Shown piece after piece: positions 7,339 through 52,099 of a stretch of 64,000 nt of DNA. The notes beneath the pieces were generated by a model, which did not search any database, was not told where the DNA came from, and worked only from the letters and a program-made list of their open reading frames with translations. The number at the start of each line of letters is the position of its first letter. The stretch's first letter is position 1. The stretch lies in the NCBI RefSeq assembly GCF_000208745.1, contig NC_030851.1, positions 21,083,511 to 21,147,510 on the forward strand, read 5' to 3'. The DNA is from Theobroma cacao (lineage: Eukaryota > Streptophyta > Magnoliopsida > Malvales > Malvaceae). A program made the position numbers and the translations under genes.

Positions 7339-10067
7339 TGTCACGACCTGAAACTCCCATCGAGCCCGTGACAACCGCCGCAAAGCCTCGATAGACATTC
7401 TTCCCCCGAATGCTTTTCGAGACCTCGCAAGGCTTTTGTACCAATTTTTCTATTCCTCTCTCTTTTTTCTTTTTTTTTTTTGAATAATAAAATAAAATAA
7501 AAATATTAATTAAAATAATCTATTTTAATGTAAAACAATATATATATATTTTCGAAACATCAAAAATTAATTTTTTGCACATAAAAACAAAATAAATTTA
7601 TACATACTGTAATATAAAAAAACTGGAGTATGCAATTTAAATTACAATGACACGTGAGCCCCCAAATAACTGAGAAGGTTTAAGTCTATAACCTTGCTTT
7701 CTAGGATGCAACTCCGAAATTTACTTCTCGATGCAATTGACAGTCTATTGCCTATTCTGAGCCTGAAAAATGTATAGGAAGAAGGGGTGAGATTATAAAA
7801 TCCCAGTGAGTAGACAAACATCATCAAAATAATCTAAAGCCGAGTAATAGGAGACAATTAAAATAATTCATCTCAACCCATATAAATAATTGGATTTCAT
7901 CTAATTACTCAACATGGCTTATGCACTTTTCAAAAACTTGGCTCTTGCCAAAAATCCATTCTCGGGGATACCTCGCGAAAGCATCTTACCGAGACCGCCA
8001 AGGCTGTTTATTGTCACACACACAAACACATTTCACCTCTGACAACACAGCCGTTCCTTGGCGTTGGCTGAGTCCCAATTTCACGTGGTGGCCAGCGTGA
8101 AGTGTACTCAAATCCTACCTCGGGAGTTATCCTACGCGCCTCTCCAATCGAGGTAAGCTCAATAATTGGGAACCGTGCCCCTCTAATTAGGCTGGCCCAC
8201 GGAACCCCCGTCACTGCAGTGCCCACTTTATAATCCACCAACCAATAAAATCACAATAGTATGACATGGCTCACTTAACACATTCAAGGCAAATCAAAGC
8301 AGTTCACATATTCTTTAAATCATAAAAATAACCAGTCATACCCACATTTATCATAAGCCATTTAATGTAAAATCATGGATAAACAACACAATCATAGTAT
8401 AGGTCTCCAATTACTCTATTTTTGAAATCATTATTAAATTTTCAAAAATTTTATAAAATTATTTTATAAAATCCCATTTTCCCATAAAACACAATAATTT
8501 TCCAATTAAACCATTTTTCCATAAAATCACACAATTAAATAAATCTACTCTAGATAATTAAGACGATAGTAAGTTTACTCACTGTACTAGGAGTAGATAT
8601 ACTCCTATTCTCGGTCCTCGGGTGTAGTCTTTTACCCGTATCAGATAGCTCACCACCTATCCACAATACATGACACAAAAAATTCAATAATTTGTGTCAA
8701 ATCAATATATATTATTTCAGGCTCTTATCCATGCGTATGCACTAGATAGGGTGTGAAATGTTTGGACAATTGCTTAATCACAGTGTCCGACCTAACTCGC
8801 CTATACACGGTGTAAATTTCTAAAATCTCCAATTCAACTCCAATTCCATCCATTTCAATTTCAATTATCCAATTATATCCACAATACCTCAATGACTGTG
8901 AATGTGGTCCAATTTATCAGTTCGGATCACAAATTACGCTTTTACCCCTAGTGGGTAAAAATTTCAATTTTTTTGCACCAAAAATTCCCATTTAATTTCC
9001 AACCTCATAATTCATCATTTTTCCATCTAATTCTCTTAAAATAAAGTCAACCTCATCCTCACACACCATTGGCTAGATTCGGCCTAGAGAAATTCATGGA
9101 GAAAATGAATATTTTTCTTGTTGTTTTACTCATAAACATGCTAAACTAACACTAAACACTAACATAGTTCAAAATCAAATTAATCTAACAACTTTCTCTC
9201 TCTAAACCCATATGATCAGATTTGAATCCATCATCAAAACACATAATTTAACCATGGAAAATAAGGAGAAATGCATGGAAATGATAAATCTTAAGCTAAG
9301 CTTGAAAAATCATACCTTTAAACACTTGATTCCTTGAAAAATCACACTTTTTCTTTGAATTTTCTCACTCTAGGGTTTGTTCTTATTTCTCTCTCTCTCC
9401 TGCTGGTTTTGGCTGACCCTCCCAATGAAGAATTCTGGAATTTTCAAGCCTTTTAATAGGCTTAATAAAATATTATTATTTTATTTACCTTTTGAATATT
9501 TTATTATTTTATTTTTTTCTAGCCATCTTTTTGACTTTCTTTTTCTACCACTCAATCCTCTTCACTTATCCATGTCTTCCATGAAATTTCTAGACTTTTC
9601 CAAAGTTTTGGTGGGGTAAATTTTTAAAAATTACACTTTTACCCCCGTAAAGTGAAAAATTACATTTTTGCCCCAAAAACTGAAAAATTGCCCATAGACA
9701 TATTTTTCATCCCTTATACTCATACCATTCTCCAATTTGTCAAATGTGATCTAAATTCTCTCAAAATCTCAAAATTTATCCGTGAGTGGAAAAATTACGA
9801 TTTTGCCCCTAGATAGTGAAAATTTTGGTTTGACTCCAAATTGATCCTCAAACTCCGAATTACCATTTTGAGTCATCCCTGAACTGTGAAACTCTTAATT
9901 TCACCTTAAAATTCCTATTTGAACTAGTTCGAGGCTTAATCGACTCAATGGTACCATTAGGGGCAATATCGTCTTTTAACAATTTCTCGAACTTCCTAAA
10001 TATACAAACATTCTATCGAGCATGTAAATGACGTAATAATTATTTTACAAAGCAGGGTTTGACAACA
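7339..10067 (-). mobile_element. TR-GAG 3' LTR
   Basis: On the minus strand the LTR runs from TGTTGTCAAACCC (next to the polypurine tract) to CGTGACA (7339). From 7339 to about 9640 it is nearly identical to 12102-14440 of the partner LTR. From about 9640 to 10067, the U3 end, the two differ strongly. Length is 2729 bases. Confidence 0.9.
7970..8230 (-). other. Conserved GC-rich LTR core block
   Basis: This block is the slowest-changing part of family-1 LTRs: recognisable copies lie at about 3895-4180, 12745-13000, 28715-28980 and from 63940. It contains several short self-complementary segments around CCTTGGCGTTGGCTGAG and CCGCCAAGGCTG. A 75-codon ORF repeats in two copies only because the DNA is nearly identical. 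It may be a leader-RNA structure or promoter element. Confidence 0.55.
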
Positions 10068-10078
10068 CTACCCCCCTT
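10068..10078 (-). promoter_or_regulatory. Polypurine tract of the TR-GAG element
   Basis: On the minus strand the sequence reads AAGGGGGGTAG, directly before the LTR start TGTTGTC. It is identical to the tract of element J at 2011-2021. Confidence 0.85.
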
Positions 10079-10538
10079 AAAAAAAATTTTGTCCCCAAAA
10101 TTTCACTTATCAAACTCCAAGAAAAGATAGGGGTATTAGCTTTTATCCAATGTTCAACATCTCATGTCATCTCCTTCGTTTGAGCAGTCTTCCACAATCC
10201 TTTAACTATTGAGATGTTCTTTTCGTTGCTCTACCTACATCACTCATCATACATGAAATTTAAATCTTGAACCACTCAGGATCATTCTTCACTTTAGTTA
10301 CCCATATTACTAATCCCTACACATGTGGGGTTGCACTTTCATTCTCATCAATGCCTCAAAGATTCATCTTTCATGTCTTATGCATTTCTGAACTCCAATT
10401 TCCACAATACATTAAGAAAATTCCATAGCGATATTTTACATAAACTCATTTATTATATTATTCTTAAAAGCTTTATTTACACTCTCAGAACTTAGTATTT
10501 ACATCTCTTATCATTATCTTACATTTCCACCTAACTTT
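10079..10538 (-). mobile_element. TR-GAG 3' untranslated internal region
   Basis: These 460 bases lie between the gag stop and the polypurine tract and show no extended ORF. They resemble the last part of the internal region of element J, so the deletion that removed pol appears to join the gag C-terminus directly to the normal 3' non-coding region. Confidence 0.7.
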
Positions 10539-11900
10539 TCATTCACTTTCTCTAGGTTGGACTCGTGCTTCATCTTCCATTACCGTAAAAACTTTTGTTG
10601 ACGCACGAGTCAGTGGTTTGGAAGGTGGGTATACTGGGGTGTTACTCTCCACATCAGGCCGAATAGCTACTCCCTGTCTCGGTTGTGCTCCAGAGGAATC
10701 TCTCATCTGCAAGTCCGTACGAGTTGATGAAGATAGAGCAGCTACAGTGGCCTGTCCTAACTGTGGACAATTAGTTCTAAAGTGACCCGTCTGGCCACAA
10801 TGAAAACATCGCAAAGGCCCCCAACACACCCCGCCATGAAATCTTCCACATTCTCTACATCTATCAAAACCTCCGAAACTTTTTTCAGAAGTAGTCACTG
10901 CAGATCCGCTGAATCTCGGAGGCCTCTGCTGCATTTGTGAAAATGATGGTCGAGAGGATGTTACCGAAACAGAAGGAGCACTCCCTGAATCAAATGAGCC
11001 TTTGCTCCTCTTTAGTGGCTGACTGGAGGACATATTCGGATTTTTCCTTTTTGCCAACTCAGCTCGCATTCTCCTATTTTCATTTGCGAGCTTCTCAGCC
11101 CTTAAGGCCATTTGTACTACCTCTTTATGGGGCTCCCTACCTGTCACAGTCATTCGCTCTCTTATCTCATTGCGGAGCCCTTCCTCGAAATAATCGGCCT
11201 GATCCTGTTCAGTCCTCACTAAATCAGGCACATAAGACAACAGCTCGTTAAATTGAGTCTCATACTCTTCTACAGTTAAATTCCCCTGCTTCAGACTCAA
11301 AAATTCTCTCTTCTTCTCTTTTTGATGGAAATGGGTATAATATTGACTATCAAATTCCCTCAGAAAGTCTGACCAAGTTAGGAGAATAGTGGAACGGGAC
11401 TTCACCGAATTCCACCATGTACGGGCTCTCTTCTCCAATAACCTCGTAGCCACTATCAGCTTCATCTCATCCTCCAATCTCATATCAGAGAGTGTCTCTG
11501 AAACCTGATTAATCCAATCCTTAGCTGCGGTGGCGTCCAACTCACCCACAAAGGACACGCAACCCAGTTGTCTAGCCTCCTTCAGCTTTTTAGAAATAGA
11601 GACATCATGTGCCAATGGAACTGAAGGAGTAACTGGTGGCACTACAGGTGGGACCTGACTAGTCTGAGCTTGACCAGCCATTGCGGTAAAGAAGGCTGCC
11701 ATTGCCTGGATTACCTCAGAAGACACGGCAGGAATGCCAGTAGGTGGCGGAGGAATCTCTACCGGTTCAGCAGCAAGTGTTGCTCGAAAAGGAGACACAG
11801 TCGATTCCTCTCCTCTAAGGTCTGGCTGACCCTGCCTAAGACGACCTCTGCCCCTCCTAGCTGATCTAGTAGGGAGTGGGCGCTCACGTCGAGGAGGCAT
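10539..11900 (-). CDS. Retrotransposon gag polyprotein (453 aa), TR-GAG
   Basis: This is the only long intact ORF in the window. The N-terminus is Arg-rich (MPPRRERPLPTRSARRGRGR), followed by a Pro-rich linker. Residues ~118-270 fit the Ty3/gypsy capsid domain (Retrotrans_gag family): A..W..., a WW pair within RTWWNSVK, F...Y.......K..EF..L.QG..TV.EY...F..L..Y. A basic linker follows, then a Cys/His cluster CRECGRFHGGVC (~348-359) and a CCHC zinc knuckle CFHCGQTGHFRTNC (~364-377), which binds the packaged RNA. The end (KVFTVMEDEAR...) resembles the gag-protease junction of chromovirus-like gypsy elements but stops before any protease active site. Stop is TGA. Gag would assemble cytoplasmic particles; the lack of stops or frameshifts suggests recent activity or selection. 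Confidence 0.92.
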   Translation of the reverse strand: MPPRRERPLPTRSARRGRGRLRQGQPDLRGEESTVSPFRATLAAEPVEIPPPPTGIPAVSSEVIQAMAAFFTAMAGQAQTSQVPPVVPPVTPSVPLAHDVSISKKLKEARQLGCVSFVGELDATAAKDWINQVSETLSDMRLEDEMKLIVATRLLEKRARTWWNSVKSRSTILLTWSDFLREFDSQYYTHFHQKEKKREFLSLKQGNLTVEEYETQFNELLSYVPDLVRTEQDQADYFEEGLRNEIRERMTVTGREPHKEVVQMALRAEKLANENRRMRAELAKRKNPNMSSSQPLKRSKGSFDSGSAPSVSVTSSRPSFSQMQQRPPRFSGSAVTTSEKSFGGFDRCRECGRFHGGVCWGPLRCFHCGQTGHFRTNCPQLGQATVAALSSSTRTDLQMRDSSGAQPRQGVAIRPDVESNTPVYPPSKPLTRASTKVFTVMEDEARVQPRESE

Positions 11901-12082
11901 GGTAATCTAAAAAGGAAACGAGGCAAGTTTAAGTAATCTCAAACTCTACATACATGCAACTCTACCTAACCCAACTTAACTTAACCTAGTTTAACTCAAC
12001 CCGGGGCCACACAGTGTCAGTGTGAATTCTTAAAATAACTATAAAAATCAAAAACTTTAAAACCATGCTTTGTTAACCAAAA

Positions 12083-12094
12083 GCTCTGATACCA
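12083..12094 (-). promoter_or_regulatory. Primer binding site (initiator Met tRNA), TR-GAG
   Basis: On the minus strand the sequence is TGGTATCAGAGC, complementary to the 3' end of plant initiator Met tRNA. It lies seven bases after the LTR end (CGTGACA), as expected for priming minus-strand cDNA. Confidence 0.92.
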
Positions 12095-12101
12095 ATCGAA
12101 T

Positions 12102-15010
12102 TGTCACGACCCGGAACTCCCATCGAGCCCGTGACAACCGCCGCGAAGCCTCGATAGACATTCTTCCCCCGAACGCCTTTCGAGACCTCGCAAGGCTTTT
12201 GTACCAGTTTTTCCATTCCTCTCTCTCTTTTTTTTTTTTTTTTTTTTTTGAATAATAAAATAAAATAAAAATATTAATTAAAATAATCTATTTTAATGTA
12301 AAACAATATCTATATATATATATTTTTGAAACATCAAAAATTAATTTTCTGCACATAAAAACAAAATAAATTTATACATACTGTAATATAGAAAACTAGA
12401 GTATGCAATTTAAATTACAATGACACGTGGGCCCCCAAATAACTGAGAAGGTTTAAGTCTATAACCTTGCTTTCTAGGATGCAACTCCGAAATTTACTTC
12501 TCGATGCAATTGACAGTCTACTGCCTATTCTGAGCCTGAAAAATGTATAGGAAGAAGGGGTGAGATTATAAAATCCCAGTGAGTAGACAGACATCATCAA
12601 AATAATCTAAAGCCGAGTAATAGGAGACAATTAAAATAATTCATCCCAACCCATATAAATAATTGGATTTCATCCAATTACTCAACATGGCTTATGCACT
12701 TTTCAAAAACTTGGCCCTTGCCAAAAATCCATTCTCGGGGATACCCCGCGAAGGCATCTTACCGAGACCGCCAAGGCTGTTTATTGTCACACACACAAAC
12801 ACATTTCACCTCTGACAACACAGCCGTTCCTTGGCGTTGGCTGAGTCCCAACTTCACGTGGTGGCCAGCGTGAAGTGTACTCAAATCCTACCTCGGGAGT
12901 TATCCTACGCGCCTCTCCAATCGAGGTAAGCTCAATAATTGGGAACCGTGCCCCTCTAATTAGGCTGGCCCACGGAACCCCCGTCACTGCAGTGCCCACT
13001 TTATAATCCACCAACCAATAAAATCACAATAGTATGACATGGCTCACTTAACACATTCAAGGCAAATCAAAGCAGTTCACATATTCTTTAAATCATAAAA
13101 ATAACCAGTCATACCCACATTTATCATAAGCCATTTAATGTAAAATCATGGATAAACAACACAATCATAGTATAGGTCTCCAATTACTCTATTTTTGAAA
13201 TCATTATTAAATTTTCAAAAATTTTATAAAATTATTTTATAAAATCCCATTTTACCATAAAACACAATAATTTTCCAATTAAACCATTTTTCCATAAAAT
13301 CACACAATTAAATAAATCTACTCTAGATAATTAAGACGATAGTAAGTTTACTCACTGTACTAGGAGTAGATATACTCCTATTCTCGATCCTCGGGTGTAG
13401 TCTTTTACCCGTATCAGATAGCTCACCACCTATCCACAATACATGACCAAAAAAATTCAATAATTTGTGTCAAATCAATATATATTATTTCAGGCTCTTA
13501 TCCATGCGTATGCACTAGATAGGGTGTGAAATGTTTGGACAATCGCTTAATCACAGTGTCCGACCTAACTCGCCTATACACGGTGTAAATTTCTAAAATC
13601 TCCAATTCAACTCCAATTCCATCCATTTCAATTTCAATTATCCAATTATATCCACAATACCTCAATGACTATGAATGTGGTCCAATTTATCAGTTCGGAT
13701 CACAAATTACGCTTTTACCCCTAGTGGGTAGAAATTTCAATTTTTTTGCACCAAAAATTCCCATTTAATTTCCAACCTCATAATTCATCATTTTTCCATC
13801 TAATTCTCTTAAAATAAAGTCAACCTCATCCTCACACACCATTGGCTAGATTCGGCCTAGAGAAATTCATGGAGAAAATGAATATTTTTCTTGTTGTTTT
13901 ACTCATAAACATGCTAAACTAACACTAAACACTAACATAGTTCAAAATCAAATTAATCTAACAACTTTCTCTCTCTAAACCCATATGATCAGATTTGAAT
14001 CCATCATCAAAACACATAATTTAACCATGGAAAATAAGGAGAAATGCATGGAAATGATAAATCTTAAGCTAAGCTTGAAAAATCATACCTTTAAACACTT
14101 GATTCCTTGAAAAATCACACTTTTTCTTTGAATTTTCTCACTCTAGGGTTTGTTCTTATTTCTCTCTCTCTCCTGCTGGTTTTGGCTGACCCTCCCAATG
14201 AAGAATTCTGGAATTTTCAAGCCTTTTAATAGGCTTAATAAAATATTATTATTTTATTTACCTTTTGAATATTTTATTATTTTATTTTTTTCTAGCCATC
14301 TTTTTGACTTTCTTTTTCTACCACTCAATCCTCTTCACTTATCCATGTCTTCCATGAAATTTCTAGACTTTTTCAAAATTTTGGTGGAGTAAATTCTTAA
14401 AAATTACACTTTTGCCCCCGTAAAAGTGAAAAATTACATTTTTGCCCCAAAAATTTAAAAATTACCAAAATGCATAATTTTCACTCCTTATACTCATATC
14501 ATGCTCCATTTAATCAAATTTGATCTAAATTCTCTCAAAAAATTCAATTTCGTCCTCGGATGGTAAAATTACCATTTTGCCCCTATACTTCAAAAATATC
14601 GAAAATTCATATATTTTCACTGCTAAATCTTCCAATTGTACTTCAATACTCATATCATACTCAAATATGCCAAATGGGTCTAAGAAAATATTTTTTTAAA
14701 AAAAAATTCCCATTTTGTCCTCATATTGCAATATGACCATTTTGCCCTATAACCGGTCAATTTTCCTGATTGATTCCAAATTGATCATCGAACTCCGAAT
14801 CACCATTCCAAGTAGATTTTGGGGTTTCAGAACTCTTAAATCCCTTTTAAATTTTTCATTTGAACTGAGCTTGAGGTATAAATCAACTTCACAGCACCTC
14901 TAGGGGTAATACCGTCTTTTGTCGATTTCTTGGGCTTCTTCAATATACAAATATTTTATCGAGCATGTGAATAATATCATAATTATTTTACAAAGCAGGG
15001 TTTGACAACG
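12102..15010 (-). mobile_element. TR-GAG 5' LTR
   Basis: On the minus strand the LTR runs from 15010 down to CGTGACA at 12102, next to the primer site. The outermost base is C where the 3' LTR has T (CGTTGTC against TGTTGTC), a single transition at the terminal dinucleotide. The outer ~570 bases (14440-15010) belong to a clearly different sequence variant from the 3' LTR and are about 170 bases longer; the rest is nearly identical. Length is 2909 bases. Confidence 0.9.
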
Positions 15011-23974: not shown

Positions 23975-25369
23975 CCTAAAGACCTATGGATCGATTCCTA
24001 CAGCTTAGTTTTGAAAATTACTTTGTTTTAAACCATTTACATACCAAAACACTTTCACACTTTTAAATTCCAGTATTTAGGGATTTTCATATTTATCAAA
24101 ACTCATTTCAAAAATTTATTTAAACAATTTTGATCATTTAATTTTATCATTTCGAACTAGCATAAATTATAACGTTAAGAGAGCATTTGTCTTTGGATCA
24201 TTTGTATATCCATAGACGAGAAGTACTTCATGACTTCTAGACCTCAAAGAAAATTTGGGGTCATTTGTATATCCACATTCCATAGAGGTACCGCATAATA
24301 TATAGAATTTAGAGAAAGTTGAGATGGATTGTGAAATTTGTCTTGTGGTTGAAAATATTGCGTGATCAACAGTTGGCGTAGCATAAGTGAAAGTGGGTTA
24401 TATAAGCTCCACGTACATCTAAACTACAAGGAAAAAAATAGACCAAAAGAAATACTACCAAGGAAAAATGATACCTGAGTCTAAATAGAACCGAGACTGT
24501 TTATTGTAGGGGTTTTGGAGGAAAAATTATTGAATCAGTTAGTAATCCCGATAACAGAGAGTTGTGGCATGAGATAATTTGGTGATAAATTTGGTTGGTA
24601 GATTTTGGAGAGCGTTTGTAAATTTCACCGATTAATTGACCGGATGATTTTAAGAATTTAAGTGGTTGATTGGTTATAACATAATTTGGATAATCCTTCG
24701 AAGCTTGGAGTATCCTCTCGTATTCTGAAAGGATTTAAAGTCAACTTGGGAATGTAATTACATTCACTTTGTCTTTGTTTCTGACTTACTAAGACGAAAA
24801 CTTCCGTTGCATTCTCCAAAATCTTATCTTCTCTGCCCCAAAATTTGTGTCCAAGATTTGTATTGTCAGTTGGGTCCCTTTCCCCCTTCACTTCTGACTT
24901 TAAGAGACATTTGCCATACATAAATTCTCTGATGAAATACTCTTTAATATTCAATTTAAAAGTGAGCTATACTTGAAACCACTTCCCCTATGCCCCTCTT
25001 GCATAGAAATGGCTAAAATTACCATTGTTTGATGTATAATGGATTACACACCCTTTTATATCTTTTACCTACTTGAGGACCCTTCTTCATCTTCTGATTC
25101 CAAATTTCCAATATTTCCATTGTTTATGTGACATGATACAAGCTTCCACAACGCTTGAAAACTCCAGCACTGCTATTATTTAAAAATCACAACGACATCG
25201 AAGACCATGGCAAGGACAATGAATCTCGTAAAACAAAAAAGTTTTCGGAAAGGGAGAGCCAAATAATGATAAGAACTATAGAGGAAAATCATAATCACAA
25301 ATATAAAAGGATGAAAACCAACCTGAATCAAAGTGGGGAAGTTAGCAGAAACCCAAGATAGGACAAGTA
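23975..25369. other. Non-TE or unrecognised sequence upstream of the MIR482-like hairpins
   Basis: I recognise no element or gene here. A 98-codon minus-strand ORF at 24658-24954 has no recognisable domain. TATA-like sequences at 25034-25039 and 25055-25060 lie about 310-335 bases before the first hairpin and could serve its plus-strand transcript; that is inference. Confidence 0.4.
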
Positions 25370-25506
25370 GGGAAGGGGAGCAACGGTTAGAAACCAAGGG
25401 TATGGGAGGTGTTGGGAAGAATTGCCCCTTTGATTTAGCAAAGGTCATAATACTGCCCAATACTCCCATACCTATGACTCCCAACACCACTCTCTGCCTT
25501 TCCCTC
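25370..25506 (+). ncRNA. MIR482/2118-like precursor hairpin 1
   Basis: The 5p arm is 25399-25420 (GGTATGGGAGG...GGGAAGA) and the 3p arm about 25451-25472 (TACTGCCCAA...CCCATACC). They pair over the whole arm with a single bulge; an inner stem (CCTTTG/CAAAGG) closes a short loop near 25431. The 5p arm has the P-loop-like GG.ATGGG..G.GT.GGGAAGA pattern and the 3p arm the T..TGCC.A..CTCCCATNCC pattern known from the miR482/miR2118 superfamily, which guides cleavage of NBS-LRR mRNAs at the P-loop and can trigger phased siRNAs. Flanking stem pairing is weaker than in hairpins 2-4, so this copy may be diverged. Expression is not shown. Confidence 0.7.
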
Positions 25507-25569
25507 TCACTCCTTTAACTTTTCCACTCAAAAATATTTAAAGAATTTTTCATATGTGAGAGAAACAAG

Positions 25570-25704
25570 GGATAGAGAGAGGCAGAGGAAATGTTTGGAA
25601 TGGGCGGAGCGGGCAAAGAAAAGGAATTGATGATTACAAAAGAGTGTTTTGCCGATCCACCCATGTCCAAAAACTTCCCAGATCAGTCTCTACCCCTCTC
25701 TCTC
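25570..25704 (+). ncRNA. MIR482/2118-like precursor hairpin 2
   Basis: The 5p arm is 25597-25618 (GGAATGGGCGG...GGGCAAAG) and the 3p candidate 25647-25668 (TTTTGCCGATCCACCC...). The 3p arm closely follows the miR2118/miR482 core TTGCCGATTCCACCCAT. The stem extends outward through GGAAATGTTT / AAAAACTTCC and a GAGAGAGG / CCCCTCTCTC base. It starts 198 bases after hairpin 1 on the same strand, so one primary transcript could hold both. Predicted targets are NBS-LRR transcripts; no target is in the window. Confidence 0.8.
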
Positions 25705-26848
25705 ACGTATCAGATGACTGACTGTTGATGGACGGGTGACCGAAGTGGTAAATATAAAGGGAGAAAACGAGTGCGGATTAGGATAAGGAAACCGCGTTGT
25801 GTTGACGTCACGTGGAAAAAGCAGAGGAAGGTGAGAAGAAAGGGCAGGTGTGGGAAGTGATAAAGCTTCTGAGATAGGACAATTCACCGACTACGGACTG
25901 CATTTATTGGTTTTCGTACCAATGGGAAGAGATTAATATTTAGGTACGCGTCTCCATTTAAAAAGTTAAGCTTGGTTTTATTTTTTTAGTAATTATTGCA
26001 TAAATTTAAGGGGAAGTTTGGTAAAAGCAGCTTTTCACGTGGCCCCATATCTTACTTTGATTTCATGTTTTTTTTCTTCTCTTTAAGTGCTGCGTGTCTC
26101 ACAGGCTTACAAACTTAAATTACTCACATCTTACGGTCTTGGACTGATCACTTCACTAATGTGTGCTTAAATTAATGTTTGAACCCCTCACACAAGAGAA
26201 TCACTTGAGCAAAGTGTGTATTCCCGCATTGAGAGGGACTCAATGTATTGCTTGCAAACACACTGTTGCACAAATTAGAGGAGACACAATGTTGTCCAGA
26301 ATTGCTAAACATGCTAGACATTATCGAAAAAGTCCATAAAGTCGGCTACTAGTTTCGTGCTTCTGGTATCCTCTTCCAATGCCAAAATGCTGATAAAGAA
26401 GAAGAAAACAAAAAGGCAAAAGGGCAAGTTGTCAATGTTAGAAGCCCATTGGTAGCGTGAAGAAGGAAAAGGACATGCCACCATTATGGTAAGGGCGATC
26501 ATTGGAGATGAAATTGCAAAGTTTATTTGGTTGGCCTAAGGAGAAGAAGTTTATTAAACCTTCCATCACTGGCAATTTTCTGATCGAGCTAAACTTATCT
26601 ACTACTACTACTATTAGAAAATTAGAATAAGAAATGAAAGGTTTGAGATGTACTGTAACACATTTTCTTTAAAGAGTTGTTTATTATAGAGATTTGCAAA
26701 CAATGACTCTTCAAGATACAACAAACTTATTTAAAATGCTTTTTGAATGAATTTTGGTTTGTAAGTACGTTTTTTTCATAGACAGTAAGAGGTTATGTCT
26801 ATTATCTTTTAAAAGATGCTTCTTGTTAACTTTCAACAAATGTGTTCA
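25705..26848. other. Non-TE or unrecognised sequence after the hairpin pair
   Basis: No gene or element is recognised. GTTGACGTCACGTGG at 25801-25815 superimposes a W-box core (TTGAC), a TGACG motif and a G-box (CACGTG); another CACGTGG lies near 26036. These are plant promoter motifs, but what they would drive is unknown. ORFs of about 60 codons around 26314-26502 look random. Confidence 0.4.
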
Positions 26849-27011
26849 TATTGTTTTCACACATATGTCTATTGTATTTCAACATACGTAACTACAACTT
26901 TCAATAGTTGTGTTTGTTGTAAATACTTATTTTATTTTAAAATTTATATTTATTCTTAAATAATTACGCCTAAATAATTATCTTCCAGTAAATATTACAA
27001 ACTATTCAACA
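26849..27011 (-). mobile_element. Short copia LTR (element L), partial
   Basis: On the minus strand a boundary TGTTGAATAGTTTG follows a purine tract CTAGTGGGGGAT (27012-27023 inverted), typical of a copia 3' LTR start. The same sequence recurs at 32968-33130. The outer LTR end is not identified; only the part shared between the two copies is listed. Confidence 0.55.
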
Positions 27012-27556
27012 ATCCCCCACTAGTTTGTAATATTAATAATACTATGCATAATAGAAAGTATCTTGAAGATTTAAACTTTCTATTAGTGTAGAAATTTTAA
27101 AGTTAAGACAAAGTTATTGGTATCACAAGGATTGAACCTAACTCCTTATGTTATAATCTAAAATATCACACACATAGTATTGTTTAATCGTTTTAAGATT
27201 CTACCAACTGCTTCAACACTTATATGGCATTGTGCTAATTCTGGTTTCATGAATATTTACAAGAATAAACCCTTGTAATTCTTGTTTGAAGCAGCACCAC
27301 TCCAATATTCATATAAATGAAATTTGTAATTATGCCCATGTTACTACAGGCATTTGATATTTTCATTAAAAGCCTTTTGCTCATCCTCTCCTCGTAACAG
27401 TCACACTGAATATTTTAGAATGAGGTTATTTGAATATTCTAGAATGAGGCTATTTAATATAAAAAATTTAATGCATAATGATAGCATATAGTAACTTGTT
27501 ATTAACTGTTGAACTTTTATTGGTAATTTTACTAACTCAAAGTTAAGTTCCCATTA

Positions 27557-27885
27557 CTAGTGCTTTTGAGTCAAGGGTTTTAGCCCCATTCCACTAGAAA
27601 TTGACTTCACAGCCTCTCTTGGCAAAGCTTTGGTAAGTGGATCAGCCAAATTCTTGCAAAATTTAACATAAACTATCGTTACAATGCCATTTGAGATCAA
27701 TTTTCTTATGTAGACATGTCGCAGACTTATGTGTCTAGACTTTTCATTATAAATTTTATTATAAGCTACACACATTGTAACCTTACTGTCACAATTTATG
27801 GAAATGGCTAGCATTGGTTGTGGCCATAACTTTATATCTAATAACAAATTTCTCAGTCATTCTACTTCTTTTCTAGCAGCTGTTA
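27557..27885 (-). pseudogene. Copia RNase H, C-terminal part
   Basis: The frame 27557-27847 reads LLDIKLWPQPMLAISINCDS ... HISLRHVYIRKLISNGIVTI ... NLADPLTKALPREAV. This is the standard end of Ty1/copia pol: a CDS catalytic Asp region, the H(I/V).. RH...R..I motif and the terminal ADPLTK motif. It is cut from its upstream half by the solo LTR at 27886. Confidence 0.85.
27881..27885. repeat. Target-site duplication TGTTA (left of LTR N)
   Basis: The partner at 30983-30987 is TGCTA, one transition different. Confidence 0.6.
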
Positions 27886-30800
27886 TGTCATGACCCGGTA
27901 CTCCCCTCGAGTCCGTGACAATCGTCGCGACGTCTCGATCGACACTTCTTATTCCGAATGTCAACCGAAACCCCGTAAGGCTTTAATATCAGCTTCAACA
28001 TTTCTCCTATGAGTAATTGTTGCCAAATACCACGTTTTAAAAGATTTTAAACTGTTTCCAACTTAAAACAAATAAAATAATAATTTTCATCTCACAAGGG
28101 TATTTTGGTCATTTTCCTAAAAATTTTGAAACAGGCTAAAATGTAATTTATAAGTACAAAACACATAATTTATAATCAAATGTGTTTAAAAGTCTAAAAT
28201 CTTCATTTAAAACGAAATTATGGTTATTTGAATATAATGAGAAAATAAAGGAAATATTAAGTAAAATATTCTATTTTCTTATGAAATAATATTTTTAGAG
28301 TTATACGTAAATAATTTTTGTAGCTTAAAAGATAAATAAATTTATACATATTGTAATACAGTAAGCCAAAATATTTAATTAAATTGACAATAACAAGAGG
28401 GCTCTCGAATAAATAAAAGTAAAGAGGACTTTGAACCTACGGTTTGAAAAATGCAGATCCAATGGTAGTCCTCGATGAGATCAGCTATCTACAGTCTATA
28501 CTGAACTTGAAATGGGTGGAAAGGAGGGTGGTGAGATTATAAAATCTCAATAAGTAAACAGACATCATCATAAACATCTAGAGTTGAGTGCATGGAGACA
28601 ATAAAGTAAATCATCGTAAATTGGGTTACAGCATTAGAACACATTTCGTTCAAAATACGTAAAGAGGCTTATGAATCTCATAAAAACTAGGCTTATGCCA
28701 TAAATCCATTCTCGAGGATACCTTGGCCGAGGCATCCTACCGAGACCGCCAAGGCTGTTAAAAATTCACATTTTCACGTAAAACACATTTTTCGTTGGAC
28801 ATCACAACCGTTCCTTGGCGTTGGCTAAGTTCTCCCTCACGTGGTGGTTTAGCGTGAAATGAACCCTAAACTTTACCCTAGGAGATACCCTACGCACCTT
28901 TCCGTTCGAGGTAAGAATATAATGGGGTTTACCGTGCCCCTCTAAAAGGCTGGTCTACAGAAACCCCCTACTGCAGTGATTAATTAATATATAATCCACC
29001 ATACAACAAAACTTAATAACATGATATGGTAATTTTTGTAATTCGCAGTCTTTCAAAACAACCAAACAATTCGTATTTCAATACAATTGCCAACTAGCCA
29101 ATTATGCTCGATTTATCATAAGCCAATCAATATAAACAATTGAATTGCAACAATTAACAGTCTCCGTGTACTCTATTTTCCAAAATCACTATTAATTTCA
29201 AAACAATTTATAAATTAATTTCATTGAAACACATTTATTCATAAAACATGAAAATTTACCTTTTTAAATCCTTGTTTTCATAGAATTCATGAAATCATCT
29301 AAAAACCACCCTAGATAATTAAAATGACAGTAAGTTTACTCACAATGTTTAGAGTGCAGATTCTCAAAATACTCAAACTATTGGTCCTCGGGTGTAATTC
29401 CTTTGCCTTTATCGGAGGACTTACCACCTTGACATAGTACAAACTAGAGAAATTCAACACATTGGTACTAAATTGAAATTAAACTAATTTAGACTACTAA
29501 TGCATGATATGGAATGCAAAAATGCACTGGTAACTATCTAAACCCGATATTGGCCTAATTCGTCTTATCACCCAATTAAATTGCTAACGTGTCCAATTTA
29601 ATCTCAAATTACTCCAAATTATTCCTATTCTTTTCCAATATCTTAATTCACCAAACTTAAATCAAATAACCTAAAATTTGGCAAAACTATCTTCACTTTT
29701 CTTCTTAAAAATTTCGACCAATAATGGTGCATTAACACCGTGATTTTTTCTACTACTTTTTCCACACCATAATTNNNNNNNNNNNNNNNNNNNNNNNNNN
29801 NNNNNNNNNNNNNNNNNNNNNNNNNNNNNNNNNNNNNNNNNNNNNNNNNNNNNNNNNNNNNNNNNNNNNNNNNNNNNNNNNNNNNNNNNNNNNNNNNNNN
29901 NNNNNNNNNNNNNNNNNNNNNNNNNNNNNNNNNNNNNNNNNNNNNNNNNNNNNNNNNNNNNNNNNNNNNNNNNNNNNNNNNNNNNNNNNNNNNNNNNNNN
30001 NNNNNNNNNNNNNNNNNNNNNNNNNNNNNNNNNNNNNNNNNNNNNNNNNNNNNNNNNNNNNNNNNNNNNNNNNNNNNNNNNNNNNNNNNNNNNNNNNNNN
30101 NNNNNNNNNNAAAACATGTAATTTAAGCATGAAAAATAAGGAGAAATGCTTAAGGAAAATAGATTTCAAGCTTAAGTTGAAAAATCCTACCTTTTTCACT
30201 TGTTTTCCTTGATTTTCCACACTTTTTCTCTTGAAATTCTTCACCTAGGGTTTGTTCTTCCTTTCTTTCCCTCTCTTCCTTGCTTGGACGAATATTTGGA
30301 GAGATAATGGGCTGATTTATGCTGATTTTTAAGTTAAATAATAAAATATCCTAAGCTTGACACATGACATTTTCTTATTGGTCTATTTTTAAAACTTTAA
30401 AAATTTAAACTTTTTATCTCCACCACATGATTAGTCAAAGGTAAAAAATGAGGATAAAGAAAGACCATGTGCTGGACAAATGTCCTAGTGGTGGAAAATT
30501 ACAATTTTGCCCCTGAGGTGGCAAAATTACCATTTTACCCCTGAGGTGACAAAATTACCATTTTACCCCTATACACCAAATTATACTGGAATTAAAATTT
30601 TTCACTTCTAAACCTCAAATCATACTCCAATACTCAAATCATACTCCAATAAGTCAAATGGGGCCAAAAAAAATCTTTTCTAAAATTCTCATTTTTTCTC
30701 CAAGTGGCAAATGACCATTTTGCCCCTAGATAGTGAAAATTCTAGTTTGACTCCAAATTGATCCTCAAATTTTGAATTACCATTTTGAATCATCCATGGA

Positions 30801-32967: not shown

Positions 32968-33466
32968 ATCATATTGTTTTTACAGATGTGTCTGTTGTAT
33001 TTCAACAGACGTATCTACAACTTTCAATAGTTGTGTTTGTTGTAAATACTTATTTTATTTTAAGAGTTATATTTATTCTTAAACAATTACGCTTGAATAA
33101 TTATCTTCCAATAAATATTACAAACTATTTAACAATCCCCCACTAGTTTGTAATATTAATAATACTATGCATAATAGAAAGTATCTTGAAGATTTGAACT
33201 TTCTATTAGTGTAGAAATTTTAAAGTTAAGATGAAGTTATTGGTATCACAAGGATTGAACCTAACTCCTTATGTCATAATTGAAAATATCACACACATAG
33301 CATTATTTAATCGTTTTGAGATTCTACCAATTGTTTTAGCACTTATATGGCATTGTGCTAATCTTGGTTTCATGAATATTTACAAGAATAAACCCTTTTA
33401 ATTCTTGTTTAAAGTGGCACCACTCCAATATTCATATAAGTGGAATTTGTAATTATGCCCATGTTA

Positions 33467-33471: not shown

Positions 33472-35318
33472 TGTTGGGATTAGCCCTACAGCCAATTGGG
33501 ATTGGTTGAGGCTTTATTCCAATCATGCAACAGTATCATTCATGTTGAATGATTAGAGGTTTTCCTTCATCAATAAGACATCAATTATAATGAGTTATAA
33601 GTCTAATTGGATGAAGTCCATGAGATTAATATGCCTTGCAAGGAAATTGTGATGGATTGCAATTATGAGATTCCTATGCATCAAAGCATAATCTCAAAAT
33701 GTTCCTGGTCAATGTATCATTGAGACTAGACATCGATGATGCTTAGAGATTGGTATATTCTATGTTCCTTACTTTGGAAGTAAGCAATCGATCTCATAGA
33801 TTGAAGTATAGAGATACTTGGAACTAGAATAAAGTGCTTACTTAGGAGAGCAAGTTCACTGAACATGACCCGCCATGAAAAGTGCATTTAGTAATACACT
33901 CTAGTATCTATGCAACACTTCTCATATGTCAATTGTGTAAATACTCTCTAGATTTAAGACACCAGGTTGTCTTATGTGTGGAGTGCTATGCTTTGATGTC
34001 ATCCCTACGGGTGCTTAACTAATGATGCCAAAACAGGATGCTTTTGGGTATAGTATGAAGCATGTGAAGGCAAATGAGTAGTCAAGATAGGAATCATCAC
34101 CTCAAGTGTTTTAGAGGACATATCCTATCAGTTCTTGGTTAACATTAGCTTATTGAAGTCCTTAGCCAAGGTGACATGGAGATTATGACAAGGTTTCATA
34201 ACTCTCTATAAAGCTAATGCTATAATTGCAAAAAAAAATATGGAGGTCAATAAGAGTAGACACTGTACCAAGCTCTTATCATCTCCGGGATATATGATAA
34301 GGGAATGAATTACATTGATAGACTGTGCACTGAAAGGTTGTCAAAAAAACCCTTTAACTCTCCTAACAATTGGGTGGCCATGATGCATTGCTAGATGCCA
34401 ATCTTGGTCTATGGAATTGATTATAAATTAATTGATTGAAATTTATATTAATCAATTAAGTCATTAATCAATTCCATTGCCAACATGTTAGGAACCTAAT
34501 AGTTCACACACAATAATTGCATTTGAATTAAATTGGGGGAGTGATGATTTAAGTTAGACTTAAATCACATGCCATGTAATTAACTTCTATAAACTTAATT
34601 AAAAAAGTTTAATTAAGTTTTAGACATAATTATAAATAGTTATAATTATAAGACCTTGATTGTAAAATATAAAAGAAATTAATTTTGATTTTAATTTTCA
34701 ATGACTTAATTAAAAGAGTTTAATTAAGTAATGGGCCAAATATTATAATGTGTTATAGTATTGAGGGCTTAATTGCAAAATTGAAGTTATTTTAACCTAA
34801 CTATATAAGTCACATTTTAACTATTTTTCATATGAGAGTTTTTTATAATTGAAAAAAACATAGTTTTTGTTAGAAAAGAAAAATGTTTTCTTTCTTTGCC
34901 ACCACTCCTTTTGTGTGAAAGAGAAAATTGCTTATGAAGTAATTTTCAAGAGAGGTTCAAACTAAGATTGTGAAAAAGAAGAAAAGGACAATTGTTGTCC
35001 TCTTTGCTAGCACAAAGTATAATTAAAAACTCCCTCATTCGTTGAAGGTTCAAGTGTAATCGTGTGTACAACCATTGGAGGCCAAACACTTGATTGCCTA
35101 GGGTTTTTGCTCCTTGTGCTGTTCGCGAGTAGTGCCATTGTGATTAGAAATTACTTGGCAAAGTAACTTTCTAAATAATAATTTATTTTATGCTTTTATA
35201 TATTAAATATCACCGAGGTGATCCATGGGTGAAGGCATGTTTTTGTTGTTTAGTTATAAAGTTTTAATTTTCTTTCTGCTGCGTATTTTGAGCATGCCGT
35301 CCATAGCCAAACCCATCA
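33472..35318 (+). mobile_element. Copia solo LTR (1847 bp)
   Basis: It starts TGTTGGGATTAGCCC and ends AACCCATCA, flanked by perfect CTACA repeats, and is absent from the paralogous site in element L. It is the same family as the split LTR at 5928-15435. The TATA-like TATATAAG lies near 34803. The GTGATCCATGGGTG block near 35219 and a CTGCTGCGTATTTTG block near 35276 are shared with the other copy. Confidence 0.93.
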
Positions 35319-35323
35319 CTACA
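35319..35323. repeat. Target-site duplication CTACA (right)
   Basis: This is identical to 33467-33471. Confidence 0.92.
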
Positions 35324-35690
35324 GGCATTTGATATTTCCATTAAGAGCCTTTTGCTCATCCTCTCCTTGTAATAGTCACACTGAATATTTTAGAATGAGG
35401 TTATTTGAATACTCTAGAATAAGGCTATTTAATATAAAAAATTTAATGCATAATGATAGCATATAGTAACTTGTTTTTAACCATCGAACTTTTATTGTTA
35501 ATTTTACTAACTCAAAGTTGTGTTCCCATTACTAGTGCTTTTGAGTCAATGGTTTTAACCCCATTCCACTAGAAATTGACTTCACAGCCTCTTTTGACAA
35601 AGCTTTGGTAAGTGGATCAACCAAATTCTTGCAAAATTTAATATAAACTATTGTTACAACGTCATTTGAGATAAATTTTCTTATGTATAA

Positions 35691-37513: not shown

Positions 37514-39103
37514 GCCTCACGCCACATCATCACCATTTGTTTTACCCTCCGCGTTACGAAATAGGAAAAAGGAGTCCCTCGTTGACCATTTTTTTCAATC
37601 TTTTATCATAATAAATAATCAATCACATAAGTAAATAAATAACTACAACATTTTAATATATAAAATAAACTAATAAAAATAATTTATTAGCAAACAAATA
37701 CTCTTATAATTTCATATATTATAGAATTAATTATGCAAATTTAAAATTCCTCTTATAGTATACTAGAGTGGTACCCCGTTTCGTGGGTGTTGAATTTTTT
37801 TAAAAAAATTATTTTAAATCACATAGTATTATAAATACTAATAATAATAAATTAAAAAATAATTATTTTAACTGTCATTGTTTTTAAAATATTTTTTTCA
37901 TGCCTTACTAAGTAAAATTTTTTATTTAAATAAATTTTTAAAATATTTAATTTTTTATATTTTAATATATATTATTATTAATATAATCATATTTCGTTAA
38001 TTACATAATTCTAACAACAAAATCTAATCCATATTGAGTAAATATAATAATTTAAAAATAATTGTTGATAGCTTACCTAATTGATATAATAAAATTTTTA
38101 AAATAAAATAATTACTTTTTAAAAGTCCAATAAAATAATATTAATTACAGTTTGTCAAATTTTTTTAATTTTAATGATGAAATTTTCGTAATTATCTTCA
38201 ATTTTAATTAATATTTTTTTATTTTATGTCTTTATAATTATTTAAAATTAATCCACCTTGTGACAAGGATCATGCCTTATTGAAAATTAAAAATTTATTT
38301 CACTTCAAATTTAGATAAAATCCACAAATATTCACCCAAATCTTTTATTTTACAAAATACATATATATATATATATATATTCCCTAAAGGGTACCATAAT
38401 GCATGCAGTGAAAATCTGTGTGCAAGTGTTAAAAGAAGAGATCAACCTTTATTTTTTATACAACAAAAGACTACCAATCACTAACCAGACTCTTAAAAAA
38501 AAAAAAAAAAAACAGATAAATAATCCACATCGTGTTCCAGGCGAGTGACCAACACTCTCCAATCACCATATGTCGGCTAAATGAGGAAAAGTATGTAGTA
38601 GATTTTCAAGTGTGCAATAGATTTAAGGATTTGAAATATTTTATTTTCCGAGTTTTTCCCTTTAGCAAAAATTATAAATTAATTTTCAACAAGGACTGTA
38701 AGCTGAATTCAAGGGTCGACGATGACTGCTGTGAAATCATCTCCGGCCTATGAAACAACAAAGCTTTCTCAACCGAACTCTCAGAAAATTGATTCACTAA
38801 GAAAAAACCATAACGTATATCGGTATCCCCCACGCTAATCCACGGAAAGTTGACAAATATTCAGAGTAAGGATCAGAAAAAAAAGAACAAAAAATGGTAA
38901 CGCTCATGAAATTACATACAGATCTATGAAAATCGGTATCCACCAAGTAGATCCGTGGAAGATGACAAATATTCAAAGCAAAGAAGATACAGATCTATGT
39001 AACAAAAATACCCACAACAAAGAAGAGTAAGATTTACCGATTTATCTCACCAAGTGAGTGCTATCAGACCACGATCAAACAAAGGATGTTAAAAAAAGTA
39101 AGA
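37514..39103. other. AT-rich sequence upstream of the second hairpin pair
   Basis: 37640-38350 is very AT-rich and 38362-38382 is an (AT)n run. 38815-39000 holds a two-copy repeat (GGTATCC.CCA...GATCC.TGGAA.TGACAAATATTCA) in tandem. No coding gene is recognised; the promoter for the hairpin transcript may lie here. Confidence 0.35.
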
Positions 39104-39250
39104 AAATGGAGAGGAAGAACTGGAAATCAGTGGAATGGGGGGAGTTGGAAAGATTTTCTTCATCCCTTGTTTTATTTTATTTCAAAGAGACAATACTAAT
39201 CTTTCCACCCACCCCACTTCCAAAAACTTCCAGTAACTCTCTCTCCCTTT
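39104..39250 (+). ncRNA. MIR482/2118-like precursor hairpin 3
   Basis: The 5p arm is 39132-39153 (GGAATGGGGGG...GGAAAGA) and the 3p candidate 39200-39221, 22 bases, beginning TCTTTCCACCC and ending CCACTTCC. This fits the miR482 pattern TCTTTCC.A..CC.CCCA..CC. Pairing continues outside the arms (CTGGAAATCAGT / AAAAACTTCCAG and GGAGAGGAAG / CTCTCTCTCCC), giving a stem of about 50 pairs with a ~45 base loop. A 22-base length is the size class associated with secondary siRNA triggering in this family. Expression is not shown. Confidence 0.82.
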
Positions 39251-39328
39251 CCCTCTTCAGTACTGTTTAACGTATAACATAAGCTGCGATCTTGTTAAAG
39301 TTTTTTTCTTTTCCAGTGAGAGTAAAGT

Positions 39329-39464
39329 GGGGAGAAAGAGGAACTAAAGGAAATCATAGGCATGGGCGGACTCGGCAAGAAAAATTAACACCTCGGATGA
39401 AGCATCCTTTGCTTGCCGAATCCACCACAGCCAAAGACTTCCTCAGATTTCCTCTCTTTCCCCC
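39329..39464 (+). ncRNA. MIR482/2118-like precursor hairpin 4
   Basis: The 5p arm is 39359-39380 (GGCATGGGCGG...CGGCAAGA) and the 3p candidate 39411-39432 (GCTTGCCGAATCCACCAC...CC). TCGGCAAG / CTTGCCGA pair perfectly and the middle has mismatches near the GCATGGG end, typical of this family. The outer stem is long: GGGGAGAAAGAGGAA against CCTCTCTTTCCCCC. It starts 227 bases after hairpin 3 on the same strand, the same spacing style as hairpins 1 and 2. Confidence 0.8.
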
Positions 39465-40081
39465 TTCTCTCTTTTCTCAATGTTCTGTAGAGGCATTACC
39501 ACCGTAAGTTATCTTTAAAAAGCAGGTGCTAACAAAAGGGACAAATCAATCCAAAAACAAAAAAAAGGCCAATGGTGACGAATGCCCTAGTGGCAATTTC
39601 GTATATAAGGTAAATTCTTTGGTGTCGGTAGATCAAATAATTTCCTAGATGTTCGTGTGTGGAGCGTGTTTTGTAAAAACATAAAATATGTTAAATAGGA
39701 TTATCATAAAATTAATTACACATACAAAACGGATTAACATGTTCAACATGATTGACTTATTTAAATTCTTTCATAATAAAATAACTTATTGACATAAAAA
39801 TATTTTTTATTAATATTTTAATTTTAACATATATATATAATATAACTTCATTATTCAAATTTAAAACTCATGATAATAAAACATTTATAACAAAAAATAA
39901 TATTCGTCAAGCATGTTAAAAATCTCCAAATAAGCCCATCAACATTAATATAAGCATAATAAAATCCAACATCAATATCTATAACTATATATTAAATTTA
40001 TCCCTAAATGGGGCAATTGTTTGACATGTAGCAGTCCTAATTACTTGACACATTGCTTCATCTATTTTGTTTAATTTTGAC
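39465..40081. other. AT-rich sequence after the second hairpin pair
   Basis: No gene, RNA or element is recognised. Confidence 0.4.
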
Positions 40082-44129: not shown

Positions 44130-44939
44130 CTCTTCCTTTCAGCAGCTTCTACATTCTCTAGCAGCTTTTTTCCTTCTTCTTCTTCCATCTCACGTTGCTT
44201 CCATCCTCCATGGAAGCTTGGTATGAAACTTTCATAACTTTCTCTCTCTAGCTCTAATTTTCATATCTTTGTGCCCTTTTGACTAGAACCCTTGTGCTTT
44301 TTCACTTTCTCACTTTAAAACCCTTGAAAAATCTTGTTTCCATACTCTCTCTCACTAGTTAGGTGTTTTAGAGAGAGAAAGAGGAAGCTTTACAATAGTT
44401 TGGAGAATTGTTGGAAAGAATTTCAAAGCTACAAAGCTATTAAGGTGAGTAGTAAATTAGAGTTGAAATTTTAGTGTTGAGAATGACTAGAGATTTGACT
44501 TGTGAATACTTTGTAGTTGAGATTGTTAATTCACTTTGAAGTGATAGGATAGTGAAAATGGATAGCCATTTAATGGCAAATGGAAGCTAGCTAAGAAAAA
44601 GCTTTTAGAATTCATAAATATGTGGCTTGACTTAATGGTGATGCTAATGTGATAATAGGTTTCAACGAAGCCCCATCGCCCCATTTGGACAATTAGAGAA
44701 GTTAGAGTTGACTAAAGGATTTAACAAATACCAGTGAGTGAACTTGCATTTCAAAATAGTTTTGGGAATGTAAATGACTTATTTAATCTTTCTTAAAACA
44801 CAGATGCCTTGGGAACAAGCTTTTGATAAATTGTCTCTATGTGTGACATGTGGCTGTTATGGATTGTTGTATTACTACATTATATTGATACATATATATA
44901 TATATATATATATATAAATAATGTTGTGTAATGATATTA

Positions 44940-45065
44940 ACCCGACTATGTGCGAGTAGGAGTGTGCATAAGCTGATGCTGACCCTCCTATGTGCGAGTG
45001 GGAGTGCGCATAAGCCGATGCTGACCCGACTATGTGTAAGTGGGAGTGCACATAAGCCGATGCAT
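44940..45065 (+). repeat. ~46 bp minisatellite in LTR A
   Basis: Three units of CTATGTGCGAGTGGGAGTGCGCATAAGC-type sequence, each followed by CGATGCTGACCC. Each unit contains the inverted ends TGTGC / GCACA or GCGCA. Confidence 0.8.
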
Positions 45066-45101
45066 ATGAGCTGATGATGATGGGAGGGTGTGTATGATGA
45101 T

Positions 45102-45138
<37 letters not shown>

Positions 45139-45139
45139 N
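45139..45139. other. Single N inside an (AT)n run
   Basis: It follows an AT microsatellite starting near 45105 and probably marks an unresolved contig join. Confidence 0.8.
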
Positions 45140-45279
45140 TATATGGTATATGGTTGTAATGAAATGCATATGAATTTGGCATGTTGAACTTTGGAAACCT
45201 TTATGTGTTTTATGTTGATTTTGTCATTTCAGTAGGATGGCTTTTTCTTGAAAGGAAGGAAAATTTTTTGTCATTGCTC

Positions 45280-45460
45280 TGTTTCTCGCTGCAGTGAGAA
45301 TGAATCTTGCTGCAGCGAGAAACTCTCGGGTTGAAAGGGTAAGGCTAGCCGAAAATCTCACTGCAGCGAGAATGTTACTGTAGCTTCTTGCTGCAACGAG
45401 AAACTTTCTGTTTTGAGACAAAAAATTTCGCTGCAGCGAAAAACTTTCTATTTTGCTCCT
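45280..45460 (+). repeat. CTCGCTGCAGCGAG palindrome array in LTR A
   Basis: About eight motifs such as TCTCGCTGCAGTGAGA, CTTGCTGCAGCGAGAAAC, CTCACTGCAGCGAGA, CTTGCTGCAACGAGAAAC and TTTCGCTGCAGCGAAAAAC are spaced 25-45 bases apart. The consensus CTCGCTGCAGCGAG is a perfect 14-base palindrome around a PstI site. Confidence 0.85.
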
Positions 45461-46292
45461 CATTTGGTTCGATTGCTGCCCTATTTTCCATTTCTTTGGT
45501 ACCATAGTTGAGCATGGACTTCCAACATTAAGGAATAAATGAATTAAGTTTAAAATGAGGAGGTTTGGTGAGAAACCCTCAGCCAGTTAAGAAACCCTCG
45601 GTTAGTTGATAATTTAAATCAAGTGTCGTTGCAGTAAAAATTCATTCTCGCTGTAACTAGCAAGGACCCGTTATTTATTTGACCTGATTCGCATGAATGC
45701 TATTAAAGTTTTCACTCTCCAAATCCTTTGTTGAGCATGGACCCTTTTCATAAAATGATTTACTCATGTGGGTTTACATAAGGGACTTTAATAAGAGCTA
45801 AAACAAATTGCATTGTTTTGAAAAATGAATGCATCATGATTTCATTAAACATTCCTTATGGTATGCTTGTTCCCTTCTTGTTCACTCATTGGGTTTATAC
45901 TCACCGTTTTCAACTTTATGTTTTCAGATCATGAGGCAGCTGGTAACTAGGTCGAAGTGTCTTCGTATATTCGACCCTTGGTTGGTGTCTTGGCATTCAA
46001 TAGCTGTACATTCGTCCGAGTCTCTCTGTTGGAAGTCGAGTACTCTTTTGTTGTGTATAGACAAACCGATGTAAATTATTAAATTATGTTTAGATAATAT
46101 ATGTACTCTTTGATTAGTATGCCACTATGAGATGGCAATGTTTAGTATTATTTTGATTCAAAGTTATAAAATGTGACTTAACAACTTTTAATGGAATGGT
46201 GAAAAGGTTATATTAATAGGCTTGTTTGGGCTTAGTGGACTACATCCATTGAGCCCATGTGGCGGTCATGGCCCGAAATTTGGGTCGTGACA

Positions 46293-50863: not shown

Positions 50864-51479
50864 TGTCACGACCCAAATTTTGGGCCATGATCGACGCATG
50901 GGCCCAATGGATGTAGTCCACTAAGCCCAACAAGCCTATTAATTTGACATGTTCATCATTCCATCATAAATTGCTAAGTCACATTTCATAACTTAGGATC
51001 AAAATAATATTAAATATTACCACATCATACTGGCATACTAAACAAGTGTATGTACATTGTTTACAACATGTATCTTAGTAATTTACATTAGGTTTGTCTA
51101 TACATCTCAAAAAGAAGACTCGATTTCCAGCGAAGAGACTCGAACGAATGTGTAGCTACTAAATGCCGAGACACCTACCAATAGTCGAGTCTACAAGGGC
51201 ACCTCGACCTAGTTACCAACTACCTCGTGATTTGAAAACATGAAGTTGAAAACGGTGAGTATAAACCCAGTGAGTGAACAATAAGGGAACAAGCATACCA
51301 TAAGGAATGTTTAACAAAATCACGATGCATTCATTTTTTCAAAACAATACAATTTATTTTAGTTCTTATTTAACCCCTCATGTAAACCCCACATGAGTAA
51401 ATCACTTTATGAAAAGGGTCCATGCTCAACAAAGGATATGGAGAGTGAAAACTTTAATAGCATTCATGAAAATCAGGTC

Positions 51480-51890: not shown

Positions 51891-52099
51891 CACTAAGAAT
51901 AAGGTTTCCTTTCACTCAGTAAAAGGCCATCCTGCTAAACCAACAAAATCAACATAAAACACATGAAAATTCCCAAAATACAATGTATCAAATTTCACAT
52001 ATATGTCAATCATATATCATTTTCATGAGCTTTCATTTCATAAGTATAAATATGCATAATTACATAGATAAACATTAATATCATCATAATCAAACTCGG

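Follow-up and report, generated by a model that had tools for sequence, protein, structure and literature searches.

Which strand of the Theobroma cacao genome carries a cluster of miR482/2118-type hairpins, and which mature RNAs does it yield? The question arises in a 64-kb stretch of DNA (the window, analysed here as a whole), in which an initial annotation had placed two precursors of this family on the plus strand at 25.4-25.7 kb. Both hairpins are present with the arm sequences described, the GG.ATGGG arms starting at 25399 and 25597, 198 bases apart, and the stretch 25350-25720 folds with an energy of -125.2 kcal/mol (z -5.43), a value equalled by 0 of 100 shuffles. The family was recognized correctly, as judged from the mature sequence, the 3p arm and the P-loop complement. 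The strand was not, and the mature products were misassigned because the strand was. We hold with considerable confidence that the miR482/2118-type hairpins of the window form two pairs on the minus strand, each likely transcribed into one primary RNA, with 22-nt 3p products predicted to cut NBS-LRR mRNAs at P-loop codons. Family, arm, target and tandem hairpins are already known; what is added here is the strand, a second pair and the recognition that two published 'novel' cacao RNAs, Novel-miR1 and Novel-miR2, belong to the miR2118-type hairpins of one four-hairpin locus.

Two hairpin pairs in the window

A second miR482/2118-type pair (39094-39471, minus strand) lies outside the coordinates annotated initially. 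Searching the 64-kb window with a degenerate 21-base P-loop pattern at no more than one mismatch yielded four sites on the plus strand and 0 on the minus strand; the pattern was designed after sight of the annotated arms, and only the two sites beyond the first two hairpins, at 39132 and 39359 in pair 2, are independent of those arms. A control set of 60 first-order Markov sequences, each simulated at 64 kb and searched on both strands, gave a mean of 0.0 sites at up to one mismatch, 0.12 at two and 1.12 at three, and in the whole window no site was found outside the hairpins at up to three mismatches. A fifth copy was sought throughout the window with a model built from the four hairpins, and none was found at E up to 5, the eight matches being the four hairpins and their four complements; the minus-strand bits of this model favour the minus strand by construction.

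Read along the minus strand, pair 1 consists of a miR2118-type hairpin, H2 (25560-25704; -61.8 kcal/mol), followed by a miR482-type hairpin, H1 (25362-25512; -59.3 kcal/mol), and pair 2 of the miR2118-type H4 (39322-39471) followed by the miR482-type H3 (39094-39259). The order is thus the same in both pairs, TTGCC-type (H2, H4) and then TTYCC-type (H1, H3), and the mature 5' ends are 196 bases apart between H2 and H1 and 225 bases apart between H4 and H3. All four hairpins fold on the minus strand with z scores from -3.10 to -8.21, carry the mature RNA on the 3p arm and cover positions 1-170 of the Rfam model RF01911 (MIR2118) in full. The 22-nt mature 3p RNAs are located at 25595-25616 (H2), 25399-25420 (H1) and 39357-39378 (H4), and that of H3 is predicted, by homology with H1, at 39132-39153; the folds further predict 5p star strands at 25647-25668 in H2 and at 25450-25470 (21 nt) in H1, and star RNAs of H3 and H4 are expected near 39198-39219 and 39411-39432.

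At the Rfam gathering scores (85 for RF01911 and 120 for MIR2118_2), the search gave 0 matches, the best RF01911 score being 61.4 against the required 85. Because they scored below the gathering score, the hairpins are not filed under that Rfam entry, and membership of the superfamily was assessed instead from the mature sequence, its arm and its complementarity to P-loop codons. By these sequence features, the four hairpins are of the miR482/2118 kind.

The precursors are probably encoded on the minus strand

The RF01911 scores are higher on the minus strand for all four hairpins: 52.5 bits (E 2.4e-09) versus 20.8 for H1, 31.6 bits (E 0.00029) versus 23.9 for H2, 61.4 versus 44.5 for H3, and 40.6 for H4, which has no plus-strand match at E up to 1. 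In a scan of the whole window at the same threshold, H3 was the only hairpin with a plus-strand RF01911 match. The MIR2118_2 model gave 33.6 bits on minus versus 26.8 on plus for H4, and 29.7 on minus for H3. Folding energies (kcal/mol) vary in direction: for H1, plus is lower in both a short cut (-39.9 versus -36.0) and a longer one (-56.6 versus -55.1), whereas minus is lower for H2 (short cut, -28.4 versus -26.6; longer cut, -56.8 versus -46.9), H3 (39114-39239; -50.8 versus -41.1) and H4 (39341-39450; -55.0 versus -36.7). Folding energy is, however, a poor guide to the strand because an inverted repeat folds on either one. The complementarity to P-loop codons postulated for the arms applies to the minus-strand 3p 22-mers, the in-frame complements of which read GMGGVGK (H1 and H3), GMGGAGK (H2) and GMGGLGK (H4); it does not extend to the plus-strand 3p arms, since in the two tested, those of H1 and H2, the complements in the matching frame read GMGVLGS and GHGWIGK.

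Plus-strand precursors that yield 3p products from 25451-25472 and 25647-25668, as initially proposed, would draw on the slightly better plus-strand fold of H1, on the above-zero MIR2118 scores of plus H1 and H2 and on the likeness of the H2 plus-strand 3p arm to legume miR2118. Yet these scores fall below their minus-strand counterparts throughout, neither plus 3p arm has an in-frame P-loop complement, and the cacao mature RNAs tabulated in PMC10853554 match the window on the minus strand only, being read from 25399-25420 and 25595-25616; plus-strand precursors are accordingly highly improbable. The supposed plus-strand products overlie the predicted minus-strand star arms (25450-25470 and 25647-25668), and the signature GG.ATGGG.GG...GGGAAGA, described as a 5p arm, corresponds to the mature miRNA in reverse complement and hence to the target sense. 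On the plus strand, the presence of four in-frame GMGGxGK stretches would also suit inverted NBS-LRR fragments, either pseudogene pieces or a young target-derived hairpin, belonging to no established miRNA family. By eye, however, the plus frames lack TT after GMGGxGK in all four cases and have stop codons at most 30 codons upstream of it, again in all four, and the Rfam similarity and the reads reported in PMC10853554 suit an established family. NBS-LRR fragments are therefore rejected, because the likeness stops at GMGGxGK, and we consider them more improbable still. Rfam scores, P-loop complementarity and published reads together favour the minus strand; some extra antisense transcription may occur besides the minus-strand precursors.

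A Pfam search for NB-ARC gave no match in the 10 open frames scanned among the 68 listed of at least 75 aa. An open frame overlapping H1 on the minus strand (25179-25514) resembled Inositol_P (E 0.026), with a score of 14.5 bits against a cut-off of 27, and was taken as a chance match. The tRNA scan of the window returned 0 genes.

Published cacao small RNAs map to three of the four hairpins

PMC10853554 tabulates the ten known cacao miRNAs of highest abundance together with ten novel ones, and three of these RNAs correspond to the minus-strand 3p products: Tca-MIR482a is identical to that of H1, Novel-miR1 to that of H4, and Novel-miR2 differs from that of H2 by one base. Accumulation of a 22-nt mature RNA starting with U is thereby documented by tabulated cacao reads for three of the four hairpins (H1, H4 and, with one base different, H2); the H3 core 20-mer was not found in the open-licence papers searched. 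On the plus strand of NC_023624.1, the same tables place Tca-MIR482a at 22810014-22810035, Novel-miR2 at 22809818-22809839 and Novel-miR1 at 22796221-22796242. By these matches and positions, the window is most likely DNA of cacao or a close relative, inverted relative to NC_023624.1 at the miR482/2118 locus, and Tca-MIR482a and Novel-miR2 have the same order and 196-base spacing as in the window (5' ends at 25420 and 25616). The distance from Novel-miR2 to Novel-miR1 is 13,597 bases on NC_023624.1 versus 13,762 in the window, a difference that may stem from the 336 consecutive N letters between the two pairs (29775-30110).

Read counts tabulated for the libraries R1, R2, S1 and S2 are 20,440, 950, 8 and 20 for MIR482a, 3627, 117, 0 and 3 for Novel-miR2, and 31,310, 2312, 84 and 128 for Novel-miR1 (PMC10853554). 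We considered this co-expression as proof of one transcript and rejected it, because tcc-miR403a, with 3260, 212, 3 and 16 reads in the same table, has a similar library pattern. For Tca-MIR482a, the target prediction in that paper lists a probable disease resistance gene. As far as its tables and its passages on these RNAs go, Novel-miR1 and Novel-miR2 are not called miR482/2118 and no locus is described, the term 'miR2118' occurring 0 times in the main text. Among the matches listed from the open-licence literature, as represented by titles and the beginnings of abstracts, none describes a cacao miR482/2118 locus or cluster.

The single difference concerns position 25611, nucleotide 6 of the H2 miRNA on the minus strand, which is C in the window and G in Novel-miR2 as tabulated in PMC10853554. 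The facing codon is GCG in the window and GCC with the published base, both encoding Ala. With the published base, the H2 fold improves from -61.8 to -65.9 kcal/mol and the bulge in the duplex closes; from this modelling, the window base is likely derived or an assembly error.

Duplexes, codon pattern and probable duplication of the pair

In the predicted duplexes, the number of unpaired mature positions is 5 in H1, 2 in H2, 2 in H3 and 1 in H4. The predicted lengths are 22/21 in H1 only and 22/22 in H2, H3 and H4; in the cotton study PMC3877274, the 22/21 asymmetry is linked to the triggering of phased siRNAs. An alignment of the four hairpins yields a consensus stem with 93.2% of 88 cells paired and 6 of 22 pairs changed on both sides. 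Its covariation score was reached by 0 of 500 shuffles, a result that counts as support only, given four related sequences and a structure taken from that same alignment.

Across the seven codons facing the mature RNAs, third positions vary in six of seven cases and first and second positions in two of 14 (Fisher p 0.003, the four related sequences not being independent). Both first- or second-position changes fall in codon 5 (residue V, A or L), and the sole invariant third position is that of the Met codon, a single-codon residue. Such a pattern would be expected of miRNAs adapted to one protein motif whose synonymous coding varies. PMC3877274 describes variable bases of cotton miR482 opposite third codon positions in the target, and PMC6358896 reviews such variation.

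Global alignment of whole hairpins (300 shuffles per pair) gave the highest z scores for H1-H3 (13.2) and H2-H4 (12.4), followed by H2-H3 (10.0), H3-H4 (8.9), H1-H4 (7.8) and H1-H2 (6.1). Mature sequences are identical at 18 of 22 positions in H1-H3, 17 in H3-H4, and 16 in both H2-H4 and H2-H3; the pairing of H2 with H4 rests on whole hairpins, because the mature sequences alone single out H1-H3 only. Given that these two combinations are the most similar and that the hairpin order is the same, one two-hairpin unit was probably duplicated to give pairs 1 and 2. The DNA separating the pairs contains long direct repeats (26846-27145 with 32969-33268, and 27343-27642 with 35318-35617), so that insertions may have pushed the two pairs apart.

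Surroundings of the locus

The window is plant-type DNA with pieces of retrotransposons. Direct repeats approximately 4.77 kb apart (7339-10066 with 12102-15009) surround a gag open frame on the minus strand (10542-11906; Retrotrans_gag, E 1.1e-18), and the region 7339-15009 has the appearance of an LTR element or of long repeats arranged in tandem. A broken inverted repeat (44168-46229 and 50926-53117), roughly 2 kb long and with arms 71-92% complementary, has a Pol_BBD open frame (50564-50887; E 3.2e-22) near its inner edge. Further direct repeats, 85-93% identical, are found 60 kb apart (2027-2844 and 62109-62925), and tandem copies with a 64-base period occupy 55577-55825. The sequence is a draft assembly with 1015 N letters in total, at 2845-3520, 29775-30110, 17491, 45139 and 54937.

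Transcription and proposed mode of action

One transcript for both H1 and H2 is plausible by analogy, and we infer one transcript per pair because of the 196- and 225-base spacing and of the cotton and poplar cases. Four independent single-hairpin MIRNA genes, merely close to each other and each with its own promoter, are unlikely: although TATA-like words lie at unequal distances from the two pairs and the read counts differ among the three cacao RNAs (tables of PMC10853554), the mature 5' ends within each pair are separated by so few bases on one strand, and relatives in cotton (PMC3877274) and poplar (PMC3475693) are reported as one transcript. A TATA-like word on the minus strand at 25751-25756, 52 bases upstream of H2, is a speculative candidate core promoter; for pair 2, the closest comparable word ends at 39607 and thus lies 136 bases upstream, the DNA being A+T-rich. 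The position is not conserved (52 versus 136 bases), and no promoter conserved between the pairs was found.

The mode of action that we propose for the two minus-strand pairs draws, for the steps from transcription to phased siRNAs, on the biology of the family as presented in PMC9650292 and PMC3877274. Pol II would transcribe each pair as one primary RNA, DCL1 would process the precursors to 22-nt 3p miRNAs, and these, loaded into Argonaute, would cleave NBS-LRR mRNAs at the P-loop codons. Phased 21-nt siRNAs produced via RDR6 would extend the effect, and the combined action of miRNAs and phasiRNAs would keep resistance genes low without infection. After the duplication, the four miRNAs would have diverged mostly opposite the third bases of codons, a divergence by which the set would match one motif in several of its synonymous codings.

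Relatives in other plants and implications

Cotton belongs to the same plant family as cacao. In its account of cotton gra-miR482h/miR482h.2 and gra-miR482e.2, PMC3877274 describes two miR482 hairpins that are separated by 164 bp and covered by a single EST consensus, and cleavage of NBS-LRR transcripts by 5' RACE together with phased siRNAs. Cotton accordingly has two close miR482-type hairpins with NBS-LRR P-loop targets, as predicted for the window. Poplar MIR482-MIR1448, also two hairpins in one transcript, is called specific to Salicaceae (PMC3475693). Its CUUGCC-type miR482.2 recalls H2 and H4, and its CUUUCCAAC-type miR1448 recalls H1 and H3, with the difference that poplar, as described there, has one two-hairpin unit and the window two. 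Over nucleotides 2-20 (19 positions), H1 matches miR1448 at 17 positions versus 15 for miR482.2, H2 at 12 versus 15, H4 at 13 versus 15 and H3 at 16 versus 16. With mature sequences alone compared, the miR482-then-miR1448 order of the published poplar unit fits three of the four hairpins, H3 being a tie. The published hop miR482b-3p is nearer to H1 (18/19) than miR1448 is (17/19), and poplar-like mature matches could have arisen without common descent, from a shared target constraint.

We tentatively raise the possibility that a unit of a UCUUGCC-type followed by a UCUUYCCAAC-type hairpin is an old module common to the cacao lineage, cotton and poplar MIR482-MIR1448 rather than a Salicaceae-specific one, and that it was copied as a block in the cacao lineage, turning one locus into a source of four miRNAs that read a single immune-receptor motif of seven residues in its various synonymous codings. 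If the two-hairpin order of the window were shared by descent with that of poplar and cotton, the view of MIR482-MIR1448 as confined to Salicaceae would have to be revised. The base at nucleotide 6 of the H2 miRNA, if the difference is real, would be a natural variant within the pairing region, with possible effects on processing and targets. The correction of the strand changes the mature products, on which all target prediction depends. The analysis also joins two 'novel' cacao RNAs to MIR482a as members of a single four-hairpin locus, in a crop that suffers from black pod disease.
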